DNA from: Viridothelium virens
Taxonomy: Eukaryota > Ascomycota > Dothideomycetes > Trypetheliales > Trypetheliaceae
Assembly (NCBI GenBank): GCA_010094025.1
Contig: ML991912.1
Location: forward strand, 1 to 22,067
Length of the DNA stretch: 22,067 nucleotides
Direction: 5' to 3'
The notes under the pieces are model-generated. The model worked only from the letters and a program-made list of their open reading frames with translations, did no database searches and had not been told where the DNA came from. Of this stretch, positions 1 through 21,780 are shown piece by piece. The stretch's first letter is position 1. Each line of letters begins with the position of its first letter. The position numbers and the translations under genes were made by a program.

Positions 1-236
1 GGTGGTGAAAGCTTGTAGATTAAGCTATGGAGGCGAGGATATCTATATACGTAGCCAATTCACGAACCTCACTCCTATTCACGTGATAGGATTGCCAATT
101 TCCTACGGTAGTAAGATTGCCTTCTCACACATCACATGCAACATCAAGGACATCTATAGGTACTTTATACATGGCAACTCACGACCCTCATTCGTAATCA
201 CGTGATAGGATTGCCTTCTCACACATCACACTCCTA
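1..236. repeat. Repeat block with two internal copies of a CACGTG-containing unit
   Basis: Two 37-bp units, 60-96 and 179-215, differ at only four positions and both contain the palindrome ATCACGTGAT or a close form of it. A 21-bp stretch (ATTGCCTTCTCACACATCAC plus A) is identical at 116-136 and 210-230. The first 40 bases (3-40) recur with one mismatch at 13389-13426, where a looser version of the CACGTG unit also follows. This is therefore part of a dispersed repeat, probably the edge of a mobile element cut by the window boundary. I cannot assign a family. The short ORF across it is not credible as a gene. Confidence 0.7.
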
Positions 237-752
237 TCTAGGTATGCATCATCAACCCTACACGTGATGCGGAGGTAATTAAGTGTCCACCTAAGGTAGG
301 TATGTCCCTAAGGAGAGTGATTACCTGAGGAAAGTAATTCCAATCCGATGTAATTCAATTTATAACTACAACATGTTTAAAAGTTGTAGAGTGGGATGGC
401 ACAGGATATTTGCTCATTCACGTGGGGGAGTCGTTCCCTAACCGAATCTATCCCCGAACCTGTCTCCCTGCTGAACTCATCTCTTTACGGTACGAATGTC
501 ACTACGGCCAAGTCTCCCTATGATCCTACTCCCGCGGAGTTTTCGTTAGATATATCCGAGCTTGGCTGGCATTCTGGCAATCCATCCTATCCCTTGTCTG
601 GCTGCTGCGCGGTGCTGCGCATGGACGATTTTTGTATGTATGGGAGTTCGACCATAGTCTAGCTTGAATAAGTAGAGCTCACTTCTTTTACTTCTAACTA
701 CATCTGATTTTCGGTGTTTCCTAGTCCGTGCGCAGCAGCGCAGCCGGACAAG

Positions 753-766
753 CAGACTGGGCAACG
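753..766 (+). repeat. Left terminal inverted repeat of the hAT element
   Basis: The 14 bases CAGACTGGGCAACG are the exact reverse complement of 3177-3190. They are immediately preceded by the 8-bp target duplication CGGACAAG. Confidence 0.93.
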
Positions 767-1379
767 GTACGATTATCGCCGATAGTATCAGCGGTATTTT
801 TATCGTACGATACGGTATGATAACGATACTATCGTATGATACGCTAGCCCCCACACAAATAGCTAAATTTTAGAAATTCTTTGTGAAATAAGACTTTTTG
901 TATAAAATAAGCTATAATTATGGCATTTATTTAGACTAAAGAATTTTTTTTTACTGCTGATATTAAGAGTACTGAGTCTAAAGCTTAATATAGGTTAGAT
1001 ATTTATATTTATTATTGTATAAAAAAGCTAAATAAATTAAAAAGACTTAAAAAAGCATTACTTTATTATTGCAAATATTATAATAAAAAGTTTTTCTTAT
1101 TAATTAGTGGATTATAAAGTTATATTTAGAAATATTACCTAGAAGTTGGGATTAATTAATTTTGTATAATATTATACTTAATAGCTTTAACTTTAATTAA
1201 TTAATTAAAAATAGATTATAAAAAGCTTTGTACAAAAGGAGAAGCGGCTGAATTTAAGTAATATATATACTCTTATATAATAAATATCACACTTATAATA
1301 ATAGTATTTTTTAATCTGCTTATTATATATAAACTTTTTTTTTGACTTATTAAATAGGATGTATTACATAAATTTATTT

Positions 1380-3055
1380 TTATACTTAATCCCTGGGTTA
1401 AACTTCCTTATGTTTATAATACAATAAAGAAAAGAGTTTAAGAGTCTTTTTTAGAATTAAAAAATATTATACAAAGATTAATCCAGTTTATAAAAACGCG
1501 AATCTATTTAGCTATTAATATTTAGATATCTTTAAATAATTACCTTTTTTTAGCTATTTATGCAAGTTATATTAATTATATTAATTAATTTTATACTTAT
1601 TTAATTAGTTTCCATATAATACCAGGCTATAGCAGTAAAGCTTAGTAATTAGTTTTACTTCCGGTCCTTAAAAAATATGGCTATATAAAGTTAATTAGCA
1701 CAGTTATTGGCAATAATATAACTATAAATAATACTCTTTATTATATAATATTAATATACTTCTCTAAAACTTATTAGATTAACTGGACGGCTACTTAAAA
1801 TTATATTTACTGCTAAGGTTATATTCTAAATTTTATTATATAAGCATATCTTTTTAATAATAAAGATAATAAAAATAATATAACTTTATATAATTAAAAA
1901 GAGCTTTTGGATGAGCAGCTAAATAAGAAGATATTAAAAAAAAGGCAAAATAAATTACATATTTAAATAAAAGTAATAAATAAACTTTACAATTTTATTA
2001 TCCATATCCATGCATTTGCTCTTTATATAATAGAATTTATTTTAAAAGCTGGTTAAAGAATCCCTTTTAATAATTATATAAAATAGAATAACTGGTTTAA
2101 TATGCTTTAAGTTGCTAAAAAGCAATAAGTTAAAGAGGTGCTTATAACATATATGGATAAGTATTATAATATTAATTTATTAAATAAAAGAGATATTCTT
2201 ACTTTAGAAGATTGGAATTATCTTTATACAGTCTGCTAATATTTTAGAATATTTAAATAGGCTATATTATATCTTTAAGGAGATTGTATAATACTTTAAA
2301 GAGTTTATAAGAGTATTAAAGCGCTTTATAAGTAGCTTAAAGGAATTAATATATATTATATTATTATATTTAACTTTATATAAAATATACTAATTAATTA
2401 TTTTAAAAATTAAAGTTTTTAAAGCAAATTCACACTTAAGTATAATACATGCTTTTAAAATTAGAATAATATTAAGAAAAATTTAATATTTTTTATTATT
2501 ATTAAGCAGCCCGCTTTTTGTCTCTTATAATTTATACAATATTTTTAAAAAATAAAGAGGGTAATTTAACTTAAAAGAGAGTTATATAATTTTGGAAAAT
2601 TAAGCAACTTTAGCTTTAATTCTCTTAAAAACCTTTTATTAATCTTAATTATTTATATAATACTTAAGGAAAATTATTAACTTTTATACAAAAGTAAAAC
2701 CTTACTCCTTTTAAACAGATCCTTTAAGAGTATTATAATAACCAGTAACTGCAGAGTTAAAATTAATTTAATTAATATTGCGCAGAAACAGCTTTATATA
2801 AGATTCCTTTATTGCTAATTAAGTAGTGGGCTAAAGATATTTAATAAAAATAATAATTATACCTCTTTTTATTTGCTTTTAATATTCTCTTAATTCCTGT
2901 AATAAATAATAAACTAGAATAGGTATTTTTTGGTGCGCGTTATATAATTTTTTGGGATAAAGCACAGCTTAATCCAGATACTGTTAAACTTTAAGAACTT
3001 TTAAAGGATTGGAAAAGATCAAATATTTTAAAAAATTAATTATATAATTTAGAGT
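1380..3055 (+). pseudogene. Decayed hAT transposase
   Basis: Plus-strand translation, ignoring many stops, gives pieces in the right order for fungal hAT transposases. There is an RNase-H-like block near 1490-1560 (IYLAINI then ISLNNYLFLAIYA, matching the usual LSFDLWTSPN..ALLG pattern). A middle block follows near 2161-2238 (LLNKRDILTLEDWNYLYTVC). The C-terminal dimerisation block lies near 2915-3030 (FFGARYIIFWDKAQLNPDT, matching the family's VFSGARRTISWDRAQLG-type motif). TAA and TAG codons often sit where W, Q or R is expected, consistent with C:G to T:A change. The exact start and any introns cannot be set. Family assignment rests on recalled motif patterns, not on a search. Confidence 0.82.
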
Positions 3056-3176
3056 AAATTATCTCGTACAATAGTTTATTAAGGGGAGGAATTTTATTTT
3101 ATTATAATAATTGTGTCGGCGCTGACGATATCAGCGATATCGCGGTAATTTATCGTACGATACGTATCGCGCCTAT

Positions 3177-3190
3177 CGTTGCCCAGTCTG
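3177..3190 (-). repeat. Right terminal inverted repeat of the hAT element
   Basis: The 14 bases CGTTGCCCAGTCTG mirror the left end exactly. They are immediately followed by the second copy of the target duplication CGGACAAG. Confidence 0.93.
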
Positions 3191-3203
3191 CGGACAAGGG
3201 ATA

Positions 3204-5950
3204 CGAAAGCTCTTGTTAGCTTATATCACTGGCTGCCGTTTGCTTAGGGCTTCTTAAAAGTCTGTAAAACTTTTAACCCATTCTAGTAACACGTATGCTC
3301 TATGCTCAGATCCTGATTGCCTCTACAATTTCGCTGTGAGTGGACATGCTTCTCGATTTCACATTGTTTAAAGTTTTGCGGAGCTTTGCGGATGTTTGCG
3401 GAGCTCAACCGAACAAAGAATCACGTACATAAATTCCAAGCAAGCTCTTGTAGTTGATTTCTTCTATCTTGAGCAAGAAGATTTTCTTTGCCGGAAATCC
3501 ATCCCGAGTACTTCCTTGTTTCTTGACTTTCTTGTTAGTGTATTGGGAAGAGTTGTTGTTGTTAATGTCGTCATCACTTCTGTAATCATCCACATTCTTG
3601 TATCCCAAAACTTGATGCTTTTTGTTGGTAGCGAACTCTCCCCATACTGTTCCTTTACGCATGTCCCTGCAGATTAGGTGTTCACCATCCTTATTTGCAA
3701 CCTTCAGCACAATAAAACTGCTTGCAAGCATTGTTGACAATTTGACTGGCGTGTTGATTGAGAAACCTTTAGTTCTGTTGCTCTTCCGCGTGAACATCCC
3801 ATTATACAGTCCTCTGGTTGTTATAATGTTGTCTTCTTACTTATGCAGAAGCTTTATTAGAATTATCTGTGCATTTATACCACTAACCTTATGGATATTA
3901 GAAACGCTTTTGCACACAATCTTCCCATGTAGAAAATAGTGCCAGGACTAGTTGCTGATGTAGCGAGATTTTGCTATAATAATAAAGAATATTATGAGTA
4001 CTTATGTAAATGTTATAAGTTGGAACGGATTCACGCCAGCGATATAGTTGTGCACGGCGAAAGGAACAGCCAGCGATCCGCACACAAAAGAGATCGCAAT
4101 AGCGATAATAGTTATAATGTAACTTTGGTAATTAATCCTAATAGAGTCCTTAGATATTACTTAGGTATCCATCTTCTGTTTATGTTTTCTGTATTCTGTT
4201 AGGATCTGCTGGGCGTGTTCCTCGGCTTTTAATCCTGTACTTAGTGCGCTATCTTTTTTGAGATCTGTTCCCACTTGAAAGAGTATTAGTTATTAAATGT
4301 CTGAAGGATATTGAGGACCCACCTTGGATACCCTATTTTAGAGGGCTGTAGGGAATAGATTGTATGTTATTATTCTCTAGTTGCTTAAGTTTGTCCTTTT
4401 TTTGATTTCGCAAGCAGTCCTTGGAAATTATATGAAATATTGCTTGGAAAGATTTTGGTGGCGGAGAAAAGGGTAATATCGGGTCCTTTTTTAAAGATCC
4501 AGTAGCCACTGTTCTGAGCATACATGTCACGCAATTAGCTGAATATATAGTTGCGAGACTTTGCATAACGGCGATTGATAAGATATTTTTTATAGAGTAG
4601 AGGTAGGTGGTCTGGTCCTTTATTTTATGCGTGTTTCCAGACCGACGTGGCTAACTCCAGTGGATAGTTGCTTTAATTGGTCCCAAAGCCATCCCTCTGC
4701 TCCCTGTAAGTGCTCGGTTGCGGGAGTTAATCACTTCCAGCTTTGCTCGCAGTAAAAGGAGTCTGCTGTATAAGGTGATTATATTAGTGGGCTCTGATAA
4801 AAAATTAATAGAACTAGACTAATCTTGATTAATTAATGTAAGAACACCTTTTAACCCAGCCGTATAAATAAGTGTGCACGCCTTAAAAAATGCGGAGTTA
4901 ATAGCATTAGCGTGTTATATATTTCTCTTGTTTAGGATAAACCATGTTATGTACTTTATTAAGTACCCCAGGTTTTTATGAAAGAATAAATAAGTCTTAT
5001 AGTAGAAATTTTTAAGGCTTATGTTTAAGTTTAATGTATTATATTGCACTTCTTTCTCCTTATTGCCTCCTTTTTTATCCAATTTCTGGATATTAAATTT
5101 AAGAAATATAAGCCTCTTGCTATTATATATCTCTATAAGTCTGTTAATAACATCCTTACTATTGGTGACGGATAATTTCGCGTATTAACTGGGATTGTAT
5201 GCTATCAGTTTTAGCTTAACAGCCCATAAAGCCAGGATAGCCAACAAGTATTTAACCTAATATCAACTTGTTGCTAATCTAAGAATTAGCCTGGCCACAC
5301 AGCTGAGTATATAATCACAAACAGCGTGGTAAAGTGTGTGATTCCTTTTAGGCGGCTTAAGAATCCGCGGCTTAGCTCCTTTTATAGTATTATTAGCACC
5401 ACCAAATTAAGCAAGGAGGAGCCTATAGCTATTTTTAAAACCTTTAATTGCGACTTTAAGCAGCGTCTTATTGGCATTCCACATCCTAATTTGGGCATTA
5501 TTATAAGCAATAATAGCAATATTGCAGGAAATCTAATTTATTATGCTCTTAGCGTCTTTAAAATTAGCTAAGGATCCCTTTATAAATAATCCCTTGCTGT
5601 TAAATAGGTAGTGTCCCTTACCAGATACCACTCCGGCAAGCTTCTTGATCTTTTTCCGCACGAGATTATTGTGCGCTTCAGCGGATATACCATACGCTGA
5701 GCAGTTATTAAATTATGTTAAGCCTTTAAGCTTTATGTGACCATTACCATACAATTTATGCTCTTGTGTAACCGTAAATGTCTCTTTTAAATCAAGCGTA
5801 AAGATGTGATTTTCTCTCTGTACAACTCTCTTTTTTCACCAAAAGGTCGCTTCCCGCTGACGGTAGGTACTGGAGAATAATGAGCAAAGAACATTTTAGG
5901 CCGACACATGAAGCCATTATGACATTTTATTCATTCATGGCTTACTTTAA
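3204..5950. other. AT-rich intergenic region, no gene supported
   Basis: About 2.7 kb without a defensible gene. A short direct repeat TTTGCGGAGCT occurs around 3374-3404. A 130-codon minus-strand ORF (3405-3797) has an acidic and Asn-rich stretch and no motif I recognise. From about 3840 to 5780 the DNA is AT-rich and stop-filled, with islands of more ordinary composition near 4630-4760 and 5600-5700, which suggests decayed repeats of unknown type. No inverted termini or target duplications were found here. Confidence 0.5.
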
Positions 5951-6974
5951 AGAGTTCAACAGTCCTGGATTCTTTTCAATGTGATCATTTGTGGCCTTGT
6001 GGTTGTGTTGGCTGAGAAATGACTCATTGAGTCCTTTCGTTGGCGTGTCAGCAGAACTGCACGAAGGCATTGCCGGCAATGTTTTGAGCCAGGGTCCAAA
6101 GACAAAGCGATATTGGAACGACGCTCTCGGAAACTATATTCCAGAGTAGTCATGATGATATACGGGAAAGCGTCCGGTCTGGTACCATCTGAACATGGCT
6201 ACACCGCTGGAGTAGACGATGCAGTCATAAAGCGCCATTGTGACGCTCGTGCATCGTGCTCGGCGCTGGAATGTCTGAATCTTGCTCATCAACTGGACGA
6301 GATTGGAGATATGAGCTGTAGATCACACACAAACGTCTGCGATATGTGCCTTGCTGACAACGGGAAGATCTCACGATGAGAACTGCCCCGTCGTGCACCG
6401 CCACAATAAGGCCCGAATGCACACTGCCACAATCATGAGAGCCTTAGTACCGTGCTAGCATACAAATGCGGAAAGAAAATGCAGTTTCTCAAAAATGTTC
6501 TTGCTCATCGGTGCAGCTTGCATTGGTACTACTCTACTCTACTGCAGGCTTTCTCAAGGCCTACAAAGCGCAGTATCGGATGATGGCAAAATTGATATAG
6601 CGAAGAAAGATCTGACTTCCAACAAGGCATATTCTGGCAGGACGAGACATCTTGGCATGCAAGCCTTGCAACCCGTCCCTCGACCATTTCCGTCGCCTCA
6701 GCTCTTCCGCATCTCCGCGAGTACCTCTGATTGTTTCATCAACTTGCGGGCCGCACATGGATGCAAGCCTCTCAGTCACGCTTCTTCCAACCTCACTACT
6801 CCGCGACGCAAAATCAACTACATCTCGTGCTAGCTCGCATCAGCGGTTGAACCTGGAACCTTAAAAACTTCAAAACTAGCTCCATCTCGTTGCCTCAATC
6901 TGCAAAGCATACAAAGACAAATTGTAGCCCTTACATAATTTGTCTACTCTAGTGCCACCAATGAACCTGAGGCC
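5951..6974. other. Region of ordinary composition with only small doubtful ORFs
   Basis: Base composition returns to normal, but no frame is long. A plus ORF from ATG 6495 to 6833 (112 codons) begins with a hydrophobic run (FLLIGAACIGTTLLYC) that could pass as a signal or anchor. The rest is low in recognisable features, and the opposite strand is open over much of it, so it is weak evidence for a gene. A Cys-containing plus ORF ending at 6379 has no proper ATG. Nothing here can be named. Confidence 0.4.
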
Positions 6975-9197
6975 ATGTCATTAGCGGAGTATGATTACGC
7001 TTTATCTTCTTATCTTGCTTTGCAAGCAAAGAAAACCGAAGAGAAGGTAATACGGCCGGACGGAAATCAACTTTCGGCCTTTGATATCACCGAGAAGCAG
7101 CGTTCGACTGGCGACCGACCAGTGATTACGCCTACTAGCTCCGTTGCGCAGGCTAGAGAATCTGATAATGATTTTAACACGTACGCGCTTCTAGTACGAC
7201 GCATGATAGACAAAGATGGAAATCATTAGCGAACACAGCTTGAGATCCAGTCTTCAGTCATCCAGGAAGCCCTTCAAGCCAGAATGCGCACACTTAAATC
7301 TTGCCGCGCATCCGGTTATATTCAAAGCTCCATATTATGAGCTATTCCAGTATCGCAAGGAGATCTGTGAATATACTGAGCATACTGATAGGACAGAAGT
7401 CCAAAAGTTGTATCTGGGTTTGCTGCTATATTTTATATCCGTAAACCTAGCAAAGATTGAGAAAATCCACAGCCAATATTATCCTAATTGGACCAGCACA
7501 TTCGCCATACTCTGGACATATTATAGGCCGGAAATATTTATAATTTATTAGACTGAGCATTATTAAAAGCTTTACCGCATTTGTTGCTGTTATTACAGCA
7601 AGGACCCCCTTACTTAAGCAAACTTCTTTGAGCTGAGTGTCTGGTTATAGGATTATAATAGCAAAGGCTTTGGCCTAAAGAAGACGTCGCTCAACCTTTA
7701 AGAGTTCTAGGGAGTGAGGAATTTGACTGAATTTAACTTCTTCCTGGTCGGATGTTTACCAGCTGATAAAAGATGTGCAATATTTGCAAGATTAATTAAG
7801 CGCGGCAAGAAGTGGCAACGTCTCATCCATCAAAGTTACCAACAATACAATGGTATATCTTAAAGTATCCAGAAGTTAATGGATTACTAATACTAAATGC
7901 GATGGTAGGCCCAGCTTGGGTTGCTTCTGATCCAAGCATGGAATGTTGAGGAGCGGTAACAGAGGCAAAGGATCTAGTGCCCATCCATGTGCGCCTATGT
8001 CATCCCGCTGTCTGTTGATCCACACTGACTATTTATTATATATTTTAGGTCACAGGCCGCGTGATTGTTAACTATAGCAACCACAGACAGCGTAATTATT
8101 TGCTAGCTACGAAGCTATACCCCCAGGGAGAGCCGGTCAATCTTTAAGAAACAGATTGGGCAGACCTAAATCCAGAAACTGCATTCTATTTTCCTAATCA
8201 GCAAAAGCTCATCAGGGATGGTGTTCTGCTTAATAATATGGTTACCTATGCCAACACAGACCTTTATAAAATTACTAACTTCTAGGCTGCTGTAGCTCCA
8301 GCACGGGTCTGTGATCTTTTATTTATAAAGAAGAGATGGTTACTGTTTACTGTGGAGAAATTAGGGGAAATCGCATGGATGGAATTAAAATTCGCATAAT
8401 TGCAGCTTAAGCTATTGTACAAGGAAGCAGTGTAAGCTGTTCTACAATAGCACCAGGAAAAGGAACTGCAACTTAACCAGTTAATAAAAAAGGGCAGAGG
8501 ACTTGTAATACTTTTATATGGAGCGCCCAGGACAGGGAAAACTCTGACAATGGGTGCGATTTATCTTTCCTTAATACATCCTTTATAGCTATCTCGTCCT
8601 AATTTAACACCTATCTTAGAGACTGTTGCCGAAACATTGCATCAACCACTCTACTACGTCGGCGTTAACAAACTTATGTCTTTATATTTTAATAATACCG
8701 AAACTGTCATAAGGAAAGTCTTTGACCTCGCTACTTCCTGGGGTGCTATCATCCTCATTAATAAAGCGGACATCTTTATGGTCCAATGCGGGCGCAATAA
8801 CAGTTACCAAAACAGCTTAGTGGCGACTTTTCTCTGAATGCTTGAATACCACAAAGGCATCGTCTTCCTCACCAGCAATCAAATTGAGGATTTCAATAAG
8901 GCATTTGAATTAAGACTGCATCTGCGCCTCCGATACCAACCAATGGACCCTAGCAAGAAAGAACGCGTGTGGCGCACAGCCCTCGCTAGCGTGCCGGAAG
9001 CTACAAATCTGAAGGACAAAGATCTTGGCCGGTTGGCCCACGATGTGGACGTCAATGGACGGCAGATCACCAATCTCGTGCGCACCGCTCGGGCAGTTTC
9101 GAATTTTAGGAAAGTACCGCTCACCATTGAGACGTTGAAATCTGTCCATGAGATGAACTCCCCCCGTGATCCTGACAGTGACAAGCATGGCTCATAG
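6975..9197 (+). pseudogene. Decayed AAA+ ATPase gene with DUF7025-like N-terminal part
   Basis: Fragments in three segments follow the order of the large fungal AAA+ ATPases of unknown role. A variable N-terminus and a block ending RRMIDKDGNH lie at 6975-7229. After a frame change comes the region preceding the ATPase core (7216-7551, with YYPNWTSTFAILWTYYRPE), then stop-broken pieces to about 8500. The ATPase core follows. Walker A is GAPRTGKT at 8520-8543, where the family has GPPGTGKT or GAPGTGKT. Walker B is ILINKAD at 8751-8771, where D and E are expected in place of N and K. A TGA at 8835-8837 sits where related proteins have Arg (FL-R-MLEY). The C-terminal AAA lid (8838-9197) is clean. 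A relic intron is visible at 8554-8619 (CTAAT branch, CTTAG end); removing it joins LTM to ETVAE in frame. Nearly all losses that can be judged are G to A or C to T. Confidence 0.85.
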
Positions 9198-10192: not shown

Positions 10193-10675
10193 ATGTTGCG
10201 GGTTTCCCCGATGAGAAAGTCAACAAGCTCTACGTATTCAGACCTCCATATTCGTGCACAAGTGTCTTCAAATCCTAAACGACTTTTTTTTGAGCTATTA
10301 ACTCGAGTAAAATTCACGATGAGCCAGATGAGTACTTCGGAAAGCCCAGCAAACAACTGGTTGGGTCTTGCTTCCAATTGTTTGGGACTTGTGAAAGCCA
10401 TTGCGGACAGCACTGTGCAAGGCAACAGTCTCAGCCAAGCTGCAAGGACGTTCTTTCAGTGGCTTGCTCACGAACGCATATCTGAGGAAGACTATGAGAC
10501 TGTTGCTATCAAGACGTCACACTTAATGTCTATCAATGATAACGGTATCTTGCTGCTTGAGAAGATCAGGAAAAAGTCCGATGGAAAGAGTTCAATAGCT
10601 GGCATACCTCTCACAACTGCAGGATCCGTTGGAAGAGCTATTGCATCTGCTCCGACCCATAGTTATATGATCACC

Positions 10676-10683
10676 ACAGCTGC
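10676..10683 (+). repeat. Left arm of the 8-bp inverted repeat at the inversion edge
   Basis: ACAGCTGC, containing the palindrome CAGCTG, in codon phase T-A-A of the upstream frame. The outer neighbouring bases do not continue the repeat. Confidence 0.75.
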
Positions 10684-10933
10684 AAGCGTATCTGGGTCTG
10701 CAACATCGCCACCATATTTTACTTGCAGCTTTTCAGGGAGCTTATGAGCAGAGTAACCAGCATTCACCACGTTTAAAGTGATACTGGAGACCATTTTTCT
10801 CAGGATTCCATTGACGTATGCACGCGATACATCGTATTTGTATTCAACACCGTGAGCATGACTCGCCTGATCGAAGACCATATTCGTTATGGCTCGGGTG
10901 ACATAATCCATATCATGATACGGTAATAAAGAA

Positions 10934-10941
10934 GCAGCTGT
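10934..10941 (-). repeat. Right arm of the 8-bp inverted repeat at the inversion edge
   Basis: GCAGCTGT is the exact reverse complement of 10676-10683. It lies five bases upstream of the in-frame ATG at 10946 that opens the next block. Confidence 0.75.
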
Positions 10942-12865
10942 CGCTATGGCTATCCAGAAGAATGACGTTGACTTACTCCTGGACTGCGATGTTCTGTACA
11001 GCGACATCATCAGTTGGATTTTATCTCACTATGAGGGTATCTTCCAAGTCTCTATCGATGGCACTGTCGTTTATCGAGAAAGCTTGGGTCTCAGGAAGTT
11101 GAGACTCATGATATTGGTAAGGGAATCTATAATATCGCCTGACAGCCCGTATGTACGAGTATCCACCAAGATCCCGGACATCCTAGAAACAGTGGTCGAC
11201 GCTCATCCTATCACTCATGGCTCAAGAGGTACGAAGGCAGCCAGACCATCCACAAGATTGCCTTTGTATACATTATCGCACGTGGATTACGCTCCGAATC
11301 ATGCAAGTGCAATGCGGGCTGATCGACTAGCTCTTTCAGAGTTAGTCCTCAGCCGCAACGAGTACCTAGCGATCGAATATACAGCTCAAGAAATAATGAA
11401 GTGGCTCTTGAAGCGTCCCCTTCACGTGAACCCCGAATCCACCCAAAGCCTTGAGTTCACTGTTGATCTTGAGAGATCTGGGGACTTCACGCTGGCGGAT
11501 GCCTTCTGTCGACATCCAGGTCTCACATGACTGGCTGGAAAGCAAGACGATAACCCTGTCACGTTCAGGCAGCCTGCATCGACTACATTGCAAGACGATC
11601 CTAATCGTCCAGGCAGATCGCTTATGGGGCTCTTTCAGGAACAAACAGCTGCTCAGAAAGCGGCATCAGAGCCGCTTAATGGACTAGATCTTATTGTTCA
11701 GAGCTTTCCATTACTTCAAGATGCGCTGATCATATGTCAGAAGCGCTGCGACTGTTCAACCTGTCCTGATGGCGGAGCGATAGGCTTAGGTAAGCCTAGC
11801 TGTCTCCGGGAAACTGCAATTAACATACTATTTACACTTCTCGGCCATGGTATCGCTGAAGGCTTCGGAGTCTCCGATATATCTGGAATCATACCTGCTA
11901 TTGTACACAGGTCGGCAGTCTCAGGAATTCTCATGCATGTCGTTAGATTCAAGCGAATCATCTGGGATTCATGGTTTTCACTTGCTGCGTCAATCTTTCT
12001 TGGCTGCCAGTCGTCGGATGCCAGATTAAGCAGATCTCAAGGAGCCGGCGAGCTGGTTGCTGTACAGCACGGATCCATGGTCGTCGTGGCTAGATGGGCT
12101 TGCCTTGGTAATCAATTGCAAAAGACTGACATTTTCAGCCTTTTCCAAGCCGAAGGTCATCTTCGAGGCTTACAGGATGAATATGCTTTAGTCCAAGTGG
12201 AGAAAACCACTGATCTGGATGATTGCAACCTTGGTGACCAGACCCCGTGGATTACACGCCGAAACCAGGGATTGCAGACGGAAGCTTTTCAGGAGGACTA
12301 TTCGAAGGATCTAAGCACACCAAGTCTTACGCACTGGATGATAAATGATGAAGGTCCATGTTCTCACCTTCTCATTGTCATTCAAACTAGCAGCTTCGAT
12401 CGCATCATTAATCCAGCTCGTGCTATCATGAGCCTATTCCGCAGCGTCTACGTGAGCTGCAAACACAATGATAAACAACATACAGTGATGGTCGTCAAAA
12501 CAACTGCAAGCATGTGGAATTTGGAGAGCGCCTTGAGCAAATGGAACTCATGGAATAACCACGTGCAACCGACGCAACCAATACAGTCAGCGATGCACCC
12601 AGAGAGAAAAAGCCAAGCGACAGATGAAGGTAGGGAAGGTATTCCGACGCTATATGTCTCCCATACTCTGGATACGGAACTCAAAATGAACGTAGCATTT
12701 GCCTTGTCGCCTTTCGGTCTTGTGGTAAAGCATCCAACTCGTTCCTGTCTAAAATGCGCAGTCGAGGCCGTATCTAACATAGATACACATGGGAACGCCT
12801 GGCGAATCGTCAACAAGGACATCTTCGAGGGTCAGCTGGTGATTCGGTCGAGTGATGATCGATAA

Positions 12866-15288: not shown

Positions 15289-17292
15289 TCATATGTTTCC
15301 CCCATTCGTAGTTCGTTGCTCGTCCGCTTCTTTGAGAACATCAAGAATGACATCGTATAGGTGTCCCGACCTGATCGACTCATACACCCGCGTATTGTAT
15401 AGACCTATACTCGGCGTGACGCCGTCAACCGTCGCGGCCTTGGTTGAAGCCAAGTGCTCCTCTCCAAGGAACGGAATGCCGAGATCCTTCCGAATGAAGT
15501 GGTACATGCGCCGCGAGGCCTGGCCGATGTACGGCGTTGCGTTAGGCGGGCTATCCTTCCGGCCCTCGATCTCTATTGTGCGGAGGTCGAGCGCTTGACA
15601 CAACGCCAGAAGGTGCGCCGAAGCGATTTGGGATAGCACATCAACGGCCTCGAGCGTGTACCGGGCCGATACGAGCGCAAGAGAGTTGAGGGCCTGGTTG
15701 CCCATCTCGGCAGTCTGGACGTGCGAACCGACGGGATTGGCCAGGAAGCCCAGCTCGGAAGTCAGGCCAGCAACGACGACATCAAGCCCCTTGAACAGAA
15801 ACGAATCGTTGGCGTCGTCGGAGCACAAGTTGGGCGGCAGTCCCCAGCTGGTGGCCGGGTTAATCATCTCGGTACACTGCGTGAAGAGCATGCGACCGAT
15901 ACTCTGTAGGCCCTGGCGCAGCTTCTCGACCGCGGACGTGACGGCGCGCGCCTGAAAGTTGCCGCCGTGAAGCACGCGGCCCGTCTCTACTTCGACCAGC
16001 GGGTTGTCTGTTACTGAGTTGAGCTCGATCGTCAGCTGGTCGTACGCTAGGCCAAAGTCCTCTAGTACGGGCCCGATCCACTGGCTGGCCGTGCGCAGCG
16101 AATATCGATCTTGTCGCAGCGTCGCCATATCCTGGCTGTCGTGTCGGTTGAGCAACCTCGACCCGGTCAGGAACGCCGTGATATTCCGTGCGCTGTCTAT
16201 CTGCCCAGGGTGCGCCCGCACCCGCGCGATAAATGGTTCGAAGCTCTCATCACTGCCCCGTAGCGCCTCCACGCTCATGGCCGTCAGCAATTGCGACAGC
16301 GCCGCGAGTTGGAGGGACTCGTGCGCCGCAAGAGCCGCCACCCCAGCCGACACAGCGGTGCCGTTGACGATGGCGAGACCCTCCTTGGCGTGTAGGCTGA
16401 TGGGCGCTATGCCGGCTTCCGACAGCGCGATGTCGGCTCTCGTCACTCTTCTGGCTCGCTCAACATCTCGTGGACCGGTAAAAGCGGTAGCGGATGTCTT
16501 GCCTTCCATCAAGGCGCTGATCCACGCGAGCGCACTGAGGTCTCCCGATGCCGAGATGCTCCCTCGGACGGGGATACGCGGCACAACGTCCTTGTTCAGG
16601 AGATCCCTCAGAGACTCCGCGATATTGACGCGGACACCCGATGCACCGCCGGCTAGAGAGTTCAGGCGGATAAGCATAGACGCCCTCGCCCACGACTCTG
16701 GCATGGAGGTGGCGGCGAGCGGGTCGTTTAGTGGGAGTAAACTTCTCACCGACACACGTTGTTGTTGCAGTTGTCCATTCAATTTGCCATTGTGGGACCG
16801 GGCCTCAGCCTCGCTTTGGCTTGAATTTCCATTGATTTGGTTGGGATGCCTATTGCTTTGCTCATTGCTTTGACTGATATGCCCATTGCTTTGGCTGGAG
16901 TACCCATTGGTCTGGTTGGTAGGTTCATTGCTGTTGGCGGCGGGTTCCCACTTGCCGTCCGAGAGTATTCCGCACGTCAAGTGACTGATCAGGCTCTGTT
17001 GGATCATCTGAACGTCGTTGGATCTCGCGTCGGCGCTGCCCCCAAATCCTGTGTTAACGCCGTAGATGACCTCGCCCTTGGCGATCTTCTCCGGGATAAT
17101 CCTGCTGCACACTTCAATGGCGTCGATGGACTCGGACGTGAGCTCAATCTTTGCTAGATGTCTCGAGACTGCCACCACGTCGGCAATAGTCAGGCCTCCT
17201 CCGTCGATGCCCAGCCTGGTATCAGCGGACGACGGGGAATCGCGCCACTGTGATAGGACTAAATCCGTGAATGAGCGTGCTTTGGTGGCCAT
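15289..17292 (-). CDS. Aromatic amino acid ammonia-lyase (PAL/TAL family, MIO enzyme)
   Basis: A 667-residue intronless ORF starting at ATG 17292 (MATKARSFTD). The family removes ammonia from Phe, Tyr or His non-oxidatively; PAL/TAL give cinnamate or p-coumarate in the cytosol. The lid Tyr is Y77 in VIYGVNTGFGGSADAR. The cofactor-forming Ala-Ser-Gly is at residues 248-250 (GSISASGDLSALAW). The active-site block DNPLVEV and LHGGNFQ is present. The selectivity pair is His104-Leu105 (SLISHLTCGIL). Fungal PALs I recall carry His-Gln, plant PALs Phe-Leu, histidase Ser-His, and tyrosine-preferring enzymes His-Leu. Residues about 120-180 are an Asn/Gln/Ser-rich insert absent from typical members. 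Length is close to fungal PALs even so. It reads toward the window's left; the DMATS gene lies upstream on the same strand. Alternative: a PAL or dual PAL/TAL. Confidence 0.93.
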   Translation of the reverse strand: MATKARSFTDLVLSQWRDSPSSADTRLGIDGGGLTIADVVAVSRHLAKIELTSESIDAIEVCSRIIPEKIAKGEVIYGVNTGFGGSADARSNDVQMIQQSLISHLTCGILSDGKWEPAANSNEPTNQTNGYSSQSNGHISQSNEQSNRHPNQINGNSSQSEAEARSHNGKLNGQLQQQRVSVRSLLPLNDPLAATSMPESWARASMLIRLNSLAGGASGVRVNIAESLRDLLNKDVVPRIPVRGSISASGDLSALAWISALMEGKTSATAFTGPRDVERARRVTRADIALSEAGIAPISLHAKEGLAIVNGTAVSAGVAALAAHESLQLAALSQLLTAMSVEALRGSDESFEPFIARVRAHPGQIDSARNITAFLTGSRLLNRHDSQDMATLRQDRYSLRTASQWIGPVLEDFGLAYDQLTIELNSVTDNPLVEVETGRVLHGGNFQARAVTSAVEKLRQGLQSIGRMLFTQCTEMINPATSWGLPPNLCSDDANDSFLFKGLDVVVAGLTSELGFLANPVGSHVQTAEMGNQALNSLALVSARYTLEAVDVLSQIASAHLLALCQALDLRTIEIEGRKDSPPNATPYIGQASRRMYHFIRKDLGIPFLGEEHLASTKAATVDGVTPSIGLYNTRVYESIRSGHLYDVILDVLKEADEQRTTNGGNI
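16753..16935 (-). repeat. Asn/Gln/Ser-rich coding repeat inside the ammonia-lyase
   Basis: On the plus strand, words such as CCCATTGCTTTG and CTCATTGCTTTGACTG recur through about 16830-16930. They encode repeats like SQSNGHISQSNEQSNRHPNQ at residues about 120-180. The insert keeps the frame and falls between the selectivity loop and the segment before the MIO domain, so it probably extends a surface loop. Confidence 0.75.
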
Positions 17293-17388
17293 TTTGATCT
17301 GAAAGTGGACTGGTATTCAGAGAGTAAAGGGACACAAGGTGTCTGTGAAGGTACCTCTGTTCTATATCCTTTCCGGCAGTGAGTGGTT

Positions 17389-17396
17389 CTTATATG
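17389..17396 (-). promoter_or_regulatory. TATA-like box of the ammonia-lyase
   Basis: On the minus strand this reads CATATAAG, about 97-104 bp before the ATG at 17292. A pyrimidine-rich run lies just upstream (17410-17430). The spacing is like that of the other two cluster genes. Confidence 0.45.
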
Positions 17397-17768
17397 TGTG
17401 TGTGCAAATAACGAGGAAGAAAAAAAAAGAGATTTTAACTGCCAAGAATGGCCAGTATCCTTGTCAAGGTCAGTGGATGTATTCGGACAAGCAAGGCAGC
17501 AGGGTCCAAATCCTTGCTGCAACGAACGATGCAGCTAGTGTGTGTTACAGAGTTATGCTTAACTTTCTTACACCTACATGTCCCTCAAGCTCTAGATGAA
17601 GGCAATACCTAACTCCGAGGCGGTGTATTGTGTCTACGACCGGTGGGACATACGCGAGCCTATCGGGATTGGATTCATTAGTCGTCCACCTACACACCAA
17701 TACAAGGACTTTTTGTAATCTTCACTCATTGAGAAACTTGTACGAAACGCGATAACTATGCTTCTATA

Positions 17769-17777
17769 TTACCCGAG
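17769..17777 (+). promoter_or_regulatory. TTACCCGAG, single-mismatch relative of the DMATS/UbiA promoter motif
   Basis: It lies about 480 bp upstream of the lyase ATG. It differs from TTGCCCGAG, found twice in the bidirectional promoter, at one position. A chance match is quite possible for a 9-mer. Confidence 0.25.
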
Positions 17778-18433
17778 CCGCATGCGGAACGTGCAAGGAA
17801 GCAGCAGCGGTATTGACGACATCGGAGAGAGACAACTCCGCTATCTCCGATGTATACTCTACTATAGCCGACACCACGCAGAGGCAGTCCTTTGCTTCTA
17901 CTTCCAATCTCGGAACTCGCCATTTGTTCCAATCAGAGAGTAAGAAACTAGTCTGGGAAAAACAGAAATAGTCGAGGAAGTTATTGTCACTGTGGTGGCG
18001 AGCGTCAAGATTGACGTTCACTTGACTCTCCTCACAGAGGGATGTATACGGACTTTCGATATCTTTTGACCTCTACGAGATGCACGCCGTTACCATCGTC
18101 TAGCCTTCACGCTGGTAGTCTACTGTTTGCCCTTGTACCTGGGAACGCTTTCTCTTCCAGGTATCGCTGGAGAAGATCACCATCATTATCAGCCCTGGAG
18201 CAATCAACATCTCGCTGCTATTACCCTAATGATACAACTGCATGGGAAACACCCAGAGGATTACTTATGTAATACCAATGGTGTTGAGACAGCTCTGAGG
18301 CATCCGTTTTCACTCTGAGCGATGGCGGTCTGGCAACGGTTGCGGTCTTGTCACTAATTCCTTTTGTTTTCTTCCCTCGCGTGCTAATCCAAGTCGATAA
18401 CTCGACAAATAACGCCCTGCAGCCCTTTAATAG

Positions 18434-19968
18434 CTAATTATGCAGTCCATTTACTTCAGGAAGCTTCGGCGTGTAATACATAGTCATGTAAAGGCCGGTC
18501 TTTGGCGTATACGTGAGTGAAATCCATGTATGCGTGAGATCTTTGGACGAGAGATCATGTTTAGGGCTACAGAAAAGATCTGAGTCAGCATAAAGACGAA
18601 AAATTCATTTAGAGCAACGTTGAGTGCTCTGTACTTACAATGTTGACTTCAAGTCCCGTTCATATCGTTCGGCGAGATCGGCGTGGCCACACTTCTGGAA
18701 CCAGGTAGACAGCACCTTACAGATTTGCTCATCTGTTTGGCCGAGCCATGATGCTGGCATATGAAGCTTGACCTCAATGTTTGCTTCCTTCTCGCCTTCC
18801 GCAACGGGTCTCATCTCATACACAAAGGCAGCTCTAGCCCCGGCGTCTAGAACCTCCTTATTCTCTAAATCTGGATCTGAGCTATAGAGGCCGAACCTGT
18901 GAAACCAAAAGTCCTCGATTGCTTCTAATCCAGCTTCGGTCATTGGTCCTGAGATTCTGCCCCCCAGGTCGAACGCGTGCTTGACCTTGGCAAGAGTGTT
19001 GGCTAGAGTGTTAACGTAGACCTTTGCTCTGGTTGCGGGAGAGTCAGGTGCACAATCATTAGATAGCAGGAAGACTATCGGTACATTATCACCACTGAAA
19101 GTCTTCAGATAGCCATCCAGTACCTCAACGGACGCGACGTAGGTCCCTGCCGGTCCGCTCCACTTGCGTACAGCATCTAATACGACGGCGTTTGTTGACG
19201 TACCCATGTGGATGGCTTTCGGAACTGGATTGAAGTATGCTTTGGCCCCTGCACTCAAACCAGATTTAGTGAGTACTGATTTAAAGGATTGAGCTAGCAG
19301 AGGCGTTTTTCTTCAAAGGAAAGCTATATGGAGAGCCACACAGGGAGCTTCAGCTGCAGAGAGAGACTGATGAAGGAGCTAGAGCCCCTGAATGACTTAC
19401 CAATGCTGCCATTCTCCAGATCGAATGCGGTCACTACAAGGAGTTTTGGGACGTGCTCTGGAAACTTCTGCAGTATTTCATCTGCTTTATCGTTTGGTAC
19501 ACGGAATTCCGACAAGAACAGATCGAATTTTACCATATCGATACCGGGGATGTGCTTGGCCATTGCGGTCAAGAGATCCTTTGCCGCTACCTGGTTGAGC
19601 CGATCAGCAGCGGTGCCGGATTTGAGAGAAGATGGCTCAATCGTAAAGCGGACAGTCTGGCCATTTTTCTTCTTCTCTTTCCAGTTGAGACTGTACTCGA
19701 GTGGCGACCCGTCGTAGGTGAATGACGAGCTGTAGTGGGGCTTGCCACCAACGGGAGCCGGACCAAAAGAGCCTGCGATCCATTGCTGATACCATTGAAG
19801 ATAGTAAAGCTGTTCCTCCTCGCTGTACTGACTGGTCTGCAGCAGCGTAGCAAGCGACTGAGCTGTGACGCCCCACCAGAAGGCTTTGTTCTCATTACGA
19901 TTGGACTGGATGTCTTGATCGACCCGCTTAAAGGAGAGGTTTGAGACGGGTAAGACCGAGACAGACAT
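18434..19968 (-). CDS. DMATS-type aromatic prenyltransferase, three exons
   Basis: A soluble ABBA-fold enzyme family that moves a prenyl group from an allylic diphosphate onto an aromatic acceptor without the Asp-rich motif. Exons: 19401-19968, 18639-19275, 18434-18566; introns: 19276-19400 and 18567-18638, both with GTAAGT donors, the second with a GCTGAC branch site and CTGTAG acceptor. The joined product is 445 residues, normal for the family. Visible marks: FWWGVTAQSLATLLQ near 30-44, DGSPLEYSLNW with Glu91 in the place of the conserved acceptor-binding Glu, and VRFTIEP with Arg107 as a likely diphosphate ligand. AGAKAYFNP follows, and a C-terminal WISLTYTPKTGLYMTMYY lies in the 44-codon last exon. 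The start at 19968 is preferred because a longer ATG (20076) lies above the TATA-like element. Substrate is unknown; the neighbours suggest a phenolic, but indoles are common in the family. Confidence 0.93.
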
Positions 19969-20016
19969 GATGGCTGTTATGTGGGAGTTTGAGCTTTGTA
20001 AAGCGTATCTAGTACA

Positions 20017-20027
20017 AATTGCCCGAG
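20017..20027. promoter_or_regulatory. AATTGCCCGAG motif, copy 1
   Basis: Exact 11-bp direct repeat of 20101-20111, exactly 84 bp apart, 49 bp before the DMATS start codon. Confidence 0.4.
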
Positions 20028-20056
20028 AGAATCTGTGATAAGGGAAGTTTTCCTCA

Positions 20057-20062
20057 CATATA
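20057..20062 (-). promoter_or_regulatory. TATA-like box of the DMATS gene
   Basis: TATATG on the minus strand, about 89-94 bp before the ATG at 19968. It lies between the chosen start and the more distant in-frame ATG at 20076, which supports the shorter protein. Confidence 0.4.
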
Positions 20063-20100
20063 CAAGTGTCTAACAAAGTGCAGGCTGATGGTATAATATT

Positions 20101-20111
20101 AATTGCCCGAG
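20101..20111. promoter_or_regulatory. AATTGCCCGAG motif, copy 2
   Basis: Second exact copy in the same orientation. It lies upstream of the DMATS TATA-like element. Confidence 0.4.
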
Positions 20112-20659
20112 CTCATTAACTTCTATTTCCCCATTAGCAATCCTCTCATAATCAAGTTCAGGTATTGTTTCCTCGTAGCTCATTCACTTTCCGGCTCTCT
20201 CACTTCCAACCCTTTGTCGGGGTTTCTTCAATTGGCGTCGGAGTTTTAACACAGGTGTAAAGCCTGATCTTTACCCAAGCGAACCCTTTCACCTTCAAAA
20301 CTTATTTCGAAACTTATCCCGGGTTCTATAGTATTATCAGATCTGCAGGGTTTGCGCTTGACGGAACTCAATCTGGTTGGCTTCTCCGACCGGCGGGTTT
20401 TATGCATTTGCAAGCTTTGTCAAACCGGAGTTTCTGGATGATTGATCCAAGACGGTCTAACCAAACAAGGCGTCATTCACGAATCGATTCTAGCCTGTTG
20501 CTCTCGGGAATATCTTGGTATGAAAAATGCCTCATTCTTGTTTGTAGATAAACATGCTACGATGAAGGACAAAGGTGACAATAGTCCGAACCACTGGCAC
20601 TGAGTACTGCAGCAACAGCGCTTTCCACTGCGAAACTCTTGCCCTTAGCTCTGGGGCTG

Positions 20660-20667
20660 TATATATT
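20660..20667 (+). promoter_or_regulatory. TATA box of the UbiA-type prenyltransferase gene
   Basis: TATATATT, 88-95 bp before the ATG at 20755, followed by a C/T-rich stretch (CCAGTCCTTTCTATTCTTGA) typical of fungal transcription starts. Confidence 0.55.
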
Positions 20668-20754
20668 CCCCACCACCATACCAGTCCTTTCTATTCTTGA
20701 CCTTTGGCAGTTATACGCCATCGCAACCCCCAACAGAACCACCTTCTCCACGCC

Positions 20755-21780
20755 ATGGATGCCGTTGAAGGCTATAGCAAGCCAAGTCAAGGCGTCTTTC
20801 GCTTCATACCCGATGCATGGGTTCCATACGCCGAACTCATGCGTCTTGACCGACCGTCAGGGTTCTGGGCTTTCTACTGGCATTACTTGATCGGACTTGG
20901 TTTTGCCATCAATGTCCAGCCCTTCTCCAGCAATCTTGATCTTGTTTCTGTTGGACTTCTCGCTGCGTACTTGGGTTTGTGGACCACCGTCTTCCGCGGT
21001 ATTACCTGTACGTGGAATGACAACCTAGATCAAGACTTTGATCGCCAGGTCGCTCGCTGCCGAGTAAGACCCATCCCACGGGGTGCCGTCACGACAATGC
21101 AGGCGCATTTCTTCACAGCCGTACTGGTTGCCGCTGGAGCCTTCATCCTATACCCCTACGGCCATTCGATATTGTATCACGCCGCTGTGGATAGCGTGCT
21201 CTTGTTCATCTACCCCCTGTTGAAGCGCTGTACGGACTTCCCCCAAGTTGAACTCGGATTTGGGCTGTCTTACGCCATATTTTTAGTGGCTGCGTCAGTC
21301 GGGAAGGATCCGTTGGCGCCTCTGTTAGATTCGTCGCTGACTCTCTCAGCGCGTGTCTCGAGGGTCGTTGAGTCACCTCTGGCCCAGTCAGCTGCATGTC
21401 TATACGTCGCTGGAATTCTCTGGAGTGTTATCTTTGACACCATCTACGCTCATCAAGATTATCTCGATGACTTGAAAGCTGGCGTTAATGGACTTGCCGT
21501 GCGACTCGGGAGGAAGGGAACGAAACCAGCTTGTTATGTAATGGGTGCCGTGCAGATATACTGTCTAGTCCTGGCAGGTCATTTGGCAGAGTTTGGGCTA
21601 TCATATTATGCAATATCATGTGGCGCAACTGCTCTCATGTTGGCCAGGATGATATGGGTTACTGATCTGGAAGATGGTGCCAGTTGCGCTTGGGCATTTG
21701 GTCGTGGAAGTGCTTACGTCGGCGCCTCAATCTCAGCTGGGCTTCTGACGGAGTTCTGGACGAGGAAGCACGGGTACTGA
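20755..21780 (+). CDS. UbiA/COQ2-like membrane prenyltransferase
   Basis: 341 residues, intronless. ATG 20755 in CGCCATGG is the first true ATG of the frame. The UbiA family transfers polyprenyl groups to aromatic acids or phenols inside the membrane, using Mg2+ held by two Asp-rich motifs. Motif 1 is NDNLDQDFDR (Asn88, Asp89, Asp92, Asp96); motif 2 is DTIYAHQDYLDDLKAGV (Asp228, Asp235, Asp238-239). RCRVRPIPRGAV follows motif 1 as in COQ2 and fungal meroterpenoid enzymes. Several hydrophobic helices are visible (for example near 43-53, 64-80, 121-135, 145-156, 171-182, 215-227, 262-275). There is no clear mitochondrial targeting sequence, and a primary-metabolism COQ2 would usually be longer at the N-terminus. 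Together with the clustered lyase and DMATS this favours a secondary-metabolism role. Acceptor and prenyl chain length cannot be told from sequence. Confidence 0.93.
   Translation: MDAVEGYSKPSQGVFRFIPDAWVPYAELMRLDRPSGFWAFYWHYLIGLGFAINVQPFSSNLDLVSVGLLAAYLGLWTTVFRGITCTWNDNLDQDFDRQVARCRVRPIPRGAVTTMQAHFFTAVLVAAGAFILYPYGHSILYHAAVDSVLLFIYPLLKRCTDFPQVELGFGLSYAIFLVAASVGKDPLAPLLDSSLTLSARVSRVVESPLAQSAACLYVAGILWSVIFDTIYAHQDYLDDLKAGVNGLAVRLGRKGTKPACYVMGAVQIYCLVLAGHLAEFGLSYYAISCGATALMLARMIWVTDLEDGASCAWAFGRGSAYVGASISAGLLTEFWTRKHGY

Follow-up and report, generated by a model that had tools for sequence, protein, structure and literature searches.

A gene frame on the plus strand of Viridothelium virens contig ML991912.1, running from an ATG at 10319 to 12865, is interrupted twice, first by a segment at 10676-10941 and further on by a lone TGA (11528-11530). 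The first interruption raises a question, as the segment is closed on the plus strand, open on the minus strand and bounded by an inverted repeat. It may have turned over once, it may turn over repeatedly, it may be an intron, or it may have been produced by assembly. The stretch analysed, referred to here as the window, is the complete contig of 22,067 bp, and the assembly comprises 30.7 Mb in 175 contigs. The preferred reading, to which a probability of about 0.86 is given, is that a chance microinversion took place at a short inverted repeat in a gene copy lost not long ago, which also carries a separate nonsense codon. The features concerned are listed below; the ATG at 10319 was chosen by the authors as the gene start, and profile columns and bit scores refer to the family profile described further on.

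10319..10675, plus strand: block 1, the first 119 codons of the broken gene, up to the inversion; 57.7 bits over profile columns 6-111
10676..10683, plus strand: left arm of the inverted repeat, ACAGCTGC, exact match to the right arm
10676..10941, coding sense minus: inverted segment, 266 bp, 88 codons
10745..10747, plus strand: TGA closing the present plus-strand frame, from the frame listing
10934..10941, plus strand: right arm of the inverted repeat, GCAGCTGT, exact match to the left arm
10942..11527, plus strand: block 3, continuation of the gene in the block 1 frame; frame 10919-11527 matches profile columns 198-384, 81.7 bits
11528..11530, plus strand: second lesion, an in-frame TGA from the frame listing, independent of the orientation of the segment
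11531..12865, plus strand: block 4, C-terminal half, 444 codons plus stop; profile columns 420-778, 226.6 bits

The first-pass annotation had described a frame shared by both sides of the segment and closed within it by a TGA on the plus strand, and the frame listing bears this out: the plus frames 10193-10747 and 10919-11530 agree, and the TGA lies at 10745-10747. The product predicted from ATG 10319 to this TGA is 142 aa long. The minus strand has no stop across the segment, as had been claimed, the number of codons inside it being 88 and not the 89 given earlier; the minus frame as a whole, 11025 to 10666, contains 120 open codons. That the flipped segment joins both sides in frame also holds, as judged by frame arithmetic and not from a rebuilt flipped gene, with residue 2 mod 3 for block 1, flipped segment and block 3. 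By the same arithmetic alone, block 4 is likewise 2 mod 3.

A search with block 4 (11531-12862) returned eight rows, namely the window itself, five other places in the genome (designated C28, C138, C54, C21 and C18), and second stretches of C28 and C21. These relatives are 25-35% identical to the window gene, a member of a small fungal gene family. Four of them are unbroken single frames of 757-832 codons that read through the segment region without a stop, and the fifth, C18, consists of two frames, the first of which (450 codons) spans the segment region. The block 1 frame 10193-10744 matched four of the five relatives; the one missed, C138, has the shortest single frame, at 757 codons, and this frame has its start inside the block 1 region. 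In C54, the counterparts of block 1 (161323-161682), the minus-strand peptide (161659-161931) and block 4 (162604-163479) all lie on one strand. A Pfam search with the gene pieces and four relatives gave no family above the cut-off, and a PDB profile search gave no matches up to E = 5. Relatives of block 4 were absent from the genome and viral contig collections searched (19 pattern matches with none confirmed, and no pattern match, respectively), which says little, as these collections are non-fungal.

Some features of the relatives were observed in passing. The split between the two frames of C18 is probably a 128-nt intron (L007, reverse strand, 1203-1330) running from GTACGT to CTCCAG with a CTGAC branch site, all three signals matching well. 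The relatives in C28 and C138 are located near a gene for a thiamine-pyrophosphate enzyme (L021:1200-2804 and L022:6760-8241), an arrangement that may reflect duplication of a gene pair, and the C21 relative adjoins pieces of a highly reducing polyketide synthase with KR and ACP domains (L024:1151-4414).

The peptide encoded by the minus strand of the segment matched all five relatives, with E values from 2.3e-11 to 5.2e-5 and 28-32% identity. The first-pass annotation had proposed a comparison with homologues in other ascomycetes; within this genome, each of the five relatives includes the peptide as coding sequence. A family profile was constructed from the four single-frame relatives and the first frame of C18, excluding the window, and pieces of the window were searched against it singly. 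The minus-strand piece inside the segment aligned to columns 112-187 with 65.6 bits, and the whole minus frame 10666-11025 to columns 102-203 with 74.0 bits. As controls, 18 pieces of at least 8 aa were taken from the five remaining frames of the segment, and not one of them obtained a profile score above zero bits (12 are listed, all negative, and six are unlisted; pieces under 8 aa were dropped). G+C content at third codon positions did not separate the segment frames: the minus frame has 0.39 and the others range over 0.36-0.58. The value of the minus frame is lower than those of the blocks (0.47-0.51), a point against the preferred reading. Judged by homology, the minus strand is the real coding sense of the segment, and its peptide is the missing part of the gene.

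The profile columns of the pieces are consecutive, 6-111 for block 1, 112-203 for the minus-strand segment and 198-384 for block 3, and at both junctions they abut with no visible loss or doubling in this protein-level comparison. The first residues of block 3, which was compared against the family profile only, are the codons shared by the repeat, and its match begins at column 198. By eye, the junction residues of all five relatives line up with those of the window. Since consecutive columns abut, the gene originally ran from block 1 through the segment into block 3, and the arrangement seen now is derived; the relatives are distant, so the ancestral order is shown at the protein level only. 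The segment is the reverse complement of the ancestral sequence, with nothing lost at that level, and is therefore classified, from its predicted peptide and junctions, as a real, derived and balanced microinversion. The disruptive inversion proposed in the first-pass annotation is supported, all five relatives having the segment peptide in uninverted order.

If the present order were that of the normal gene, the segment would be removed from the transcript as an ordinary intron. There are 26 in-frame GT-AG pairs across the segment that could serve this purpose, the best donor, GTATCT at 10688, agreeing at three of four positions, without a branch-site match. Against such splicing stands the conservation of the minus strand, which encodes a part that is coding in all five relatives; the segment was therefore an exon before it turned over. 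A normal intron at 10748-10945, which had been put forward earlier as an observation that would overturn the inversion, is rejected, as these coordinates neither begin with GT nor end with AG. An intronic origin of the segment is extremely improbable, and a spliced transcript, if present, would represent a secondary rescue and would leave the inversion itself real.

It may also be asked whether the organism carries the uninverted sequence and the inversion is an artefact of assembly or library preparation. The small size of the contig, one of 175, favours such an error. Assemblers use overlaps longer than 8 bp, however, and the arms of the repeat fall short of the length at which repeats usually cause misassembly. 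A single chimeric join would leave one junction, whereas here there are two, both clean, and when the assembly was searched at the DNA level, 10400-11300 matched the window alone. Assembly error is thus unlikely, and only a small probability is assigned to it.

The repeat itself is as the first-pass annotation described, the 8-bp arms ACAGCTGC (10676-10683) and GCAGCTGT (10934-10941) being perfect reverse complements located at the two boundaries of the segment. Inverted matches of at least 8 bp between random pairs of places in the gene occurred in 11 of 3730 pairs at a half-width of 9 nt, 22 of 3746 at 12 nt, 25 of 3716 at 15 nt, 52 of 3679 at 20 nt and 141 of 3725 at 30 nt; in four relatives, the same test at +-20 nt gave 8 of 2000. 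To find 8 bp of inverted repeat at both boundaries is uncommon, not extreme. The gene contains 14 pairs of inverted 8-mers separated by 100-500 bp, some of them overlapping, so that 8-mer pairs as such are common, and the notable point is that one pair lies exactly at both breakpoints. At the homologous junctions the repeat is absent in all five relatives, where the longest inverted match is 4-5 bp. A repeat at both breakpoints agrees with an inversion that arose through a template switch or through repair guided by microhomology.

The second interruption, the TGA at 11528-11530, does not figure in the first-pass annotation and breaks the frame downstream in either orientation of the segment. 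A scan for introns that would remove it (donors 11380-11529, acceptors 11531-11760, length 40-300 nt) produced 40 in-frame GT-AG candidates, none above two of four donor consensus positions. Eight candidates have two of the four positions, and in three of these eight a branch-site match is present as well, together with a pyrimidine preceding the AG. Removal of the TGA therefore appears unlikely from the splice signals, although a weak intron might achieve it, and the TGA might also stem from an error in sequencing. In an alignment made by eye, the donor of the likely C18 intron lies a few codons downstream of the spot matching the window TGA, which is accordingly read as probably exonic. Given this TGA and the lack of an intron with a good donor, a truncated product is expected in either orientation.

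This bears directly on the proposal, raised in the first-pass annotation, that the segment flips repeatedly at the 8-bp repeat and that its orientation switches the gene on and off. A clean inversion bounded by a perfect inverted repeat, in a gene whose pieces keep open frames except for one codon, speaks for a switch, and palindrome inversions have been reported in a chloroplast spacer, within species too according to the title of the report (PMC2903610). However, neither orientation provides a working frame, as the TGA at 11528 would truncate the product either way, with the proviso that a weak intron or a sequencing error could in principle exist there. No recombinase family was detected by Pfam in any of the 31 window frames of at least 100 codons, and the search of the assembly with 10400-11300 revealed one orientation. 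The arms, at 8 bp, are far under the 50-250 bp cited for homologous recombination in one report (PMC8755829) and shorter than the 250-bp repeat of the Sclerotinia case discussed below (PMC3574095). A switch conserved in the family is rejected, since the repeat is missing from the homologous junctions of all five relatives. The on/off switch is not supported by these data and is highly improbable. Flipping at appreciable frequency without a dedicated recombinase, giving the gene two alternative forms, is equally improbable; the forms that it would predict are a 142-aa stub and a longer product that either ends at 11530 or passes the stop by splicing or readthrough. Repeated flipping, if true, would be remarkable; the evidence points the other way, and with the second break further on, the gene looks like an ordinary dying copy rather than a switch.

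The chance microinversion in a lost gene copy is also consistent with the overall state of the frame. The four pieces comprise 846 codons with no internal stop, and one stop codon lies between blocks 3 and 4. The share of single changes that create a stop, with transitions weighted, is 0.0347, which predicts about 88 stops for each substitution per site; one stop would then fit about 1% neutral change, with a rough 95% bound of about 5%; this estimate is the authors' own arithmetic, which assumes neutrality and ignores insertions and deletions. As there are no other stops in the 846 codons, the loss of the gene looks recent. Frame disruptions, consisting of the inversion and one nonsense codon, set the gene apart from the unbroken frames of 757-832 codons in four relatives, and it is best read, on the sequence at hand, as a pseudogene, probably a recently lost copy of the family. 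From 10319-12865 a gene caller would obtain only truncated frames.

Repeat-induced point mutation (RIP) was considered as a cause and rejected for the gene: in the four stretches of 10319-12865, TA/AT is 0.57-0.67 and (CA+TG)/(AC+GT) is 1.28-1.61, values that are not RIP-like by the usual thresholds. By the same thresholds, positions 1-2000 of the window are RIP-like by both indices, and the left end as a whole (1-6000) is A+T-rich, with a G+C content of 0.29-0.37 and TA/AT of 1.11-1.17.

The upstream neighbour of the gene is a remnant of a fungal AAA ATPase with two internal stops within 8499-9197, perhaps starting, by eye, at about 6960. It contains the Walker-A-like motif GAPRTGKT and shows a sub-threshold Pfam match to the fungal AAA lid domain; its C-terminal part matches at least 22 other places in the genome. 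Since this gene is also decayed, the locus is decaying more widely. On the other side of the disrupted gene, positions 15289-21780 hold together an aromatic amino acid lyase with an insert rich in asparagine, glutamine and serine, a Trp_DMAT-type prenyltransferase in two frames and a UbiA-type prenyltransferase, and these genes are possibly a metabolite cluster.

In the sequence of events proposed here, the 266-bp stretch would have been inverted once, exactly between the two 8-bp inverted repeats, and as far as the protein comparison can tell, no sequence was added or removed. The inversion most likely took place during replication or break repair, when the template was switched from one repeat to the other or synthesis was mediated by their microhomology, and together with the separate nonsense codon at 11528-11530 it would have ended the gene. 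The data show the derived inversion, junctions that are clean at the protein level, the repeat and the second stop; from these we infer the repair mechanism, the single event, its non-reversibility and the order of the two lesions.

Microinversions between human and chimpanzee are among the closest known parallels. As reported, inverted repeats of 3-75 nt flank all 59 definite cases, the inversions are 17-33 nt long, and repair mechanisms are proposed (PMC8755829). The window segment resembles them in being balanced and precise, edged on either side by a short inverted repeat, and in that no recombinase is invoked, and differs in its location within a coding frame of a fungal nuclear gene and in its length, its 266 bp falling outside the 17-33 nt of that set, a range not taken here as defining the kind (PMC8755829). 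Because the segment is longer, the repair mechanism is carried over from that set by inference. The titles and abstract openings listed by one open library yielded no matching fungal case of a small, intragenic, phase-variable or polymorphic inversion. Short inverted sequences also bound small inversions in the chloroplast trnH-psbA spacer (PMC2903610); those are organellar and non-genic and are known from many lineages, whereas the present case concerns a fungal nuclear gene in one state. The MAT inversion of Sclerotinia sclerotiorum is 3.6 kb long with 250-bp repeats and segregates 1:1 in progeny (PMC3574095). It too belongs to a filamentous ascomycete, cuts a gene short and has inverted repeats at its ends; the window case, in contrast, has 8-bp repeats and a single observed state, and its gene is broken elsewhere too. 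Set beside these systems, the inversion is ordinary in kind and notable for its size and clean reconstruction, being a well-resolved, mid-sized balanced microinversion in fungal coding sequence whose ancestral order is provided by relatives in the same genome, and the site offers a concrete test of the way in which inversion is promoted by short repeats.
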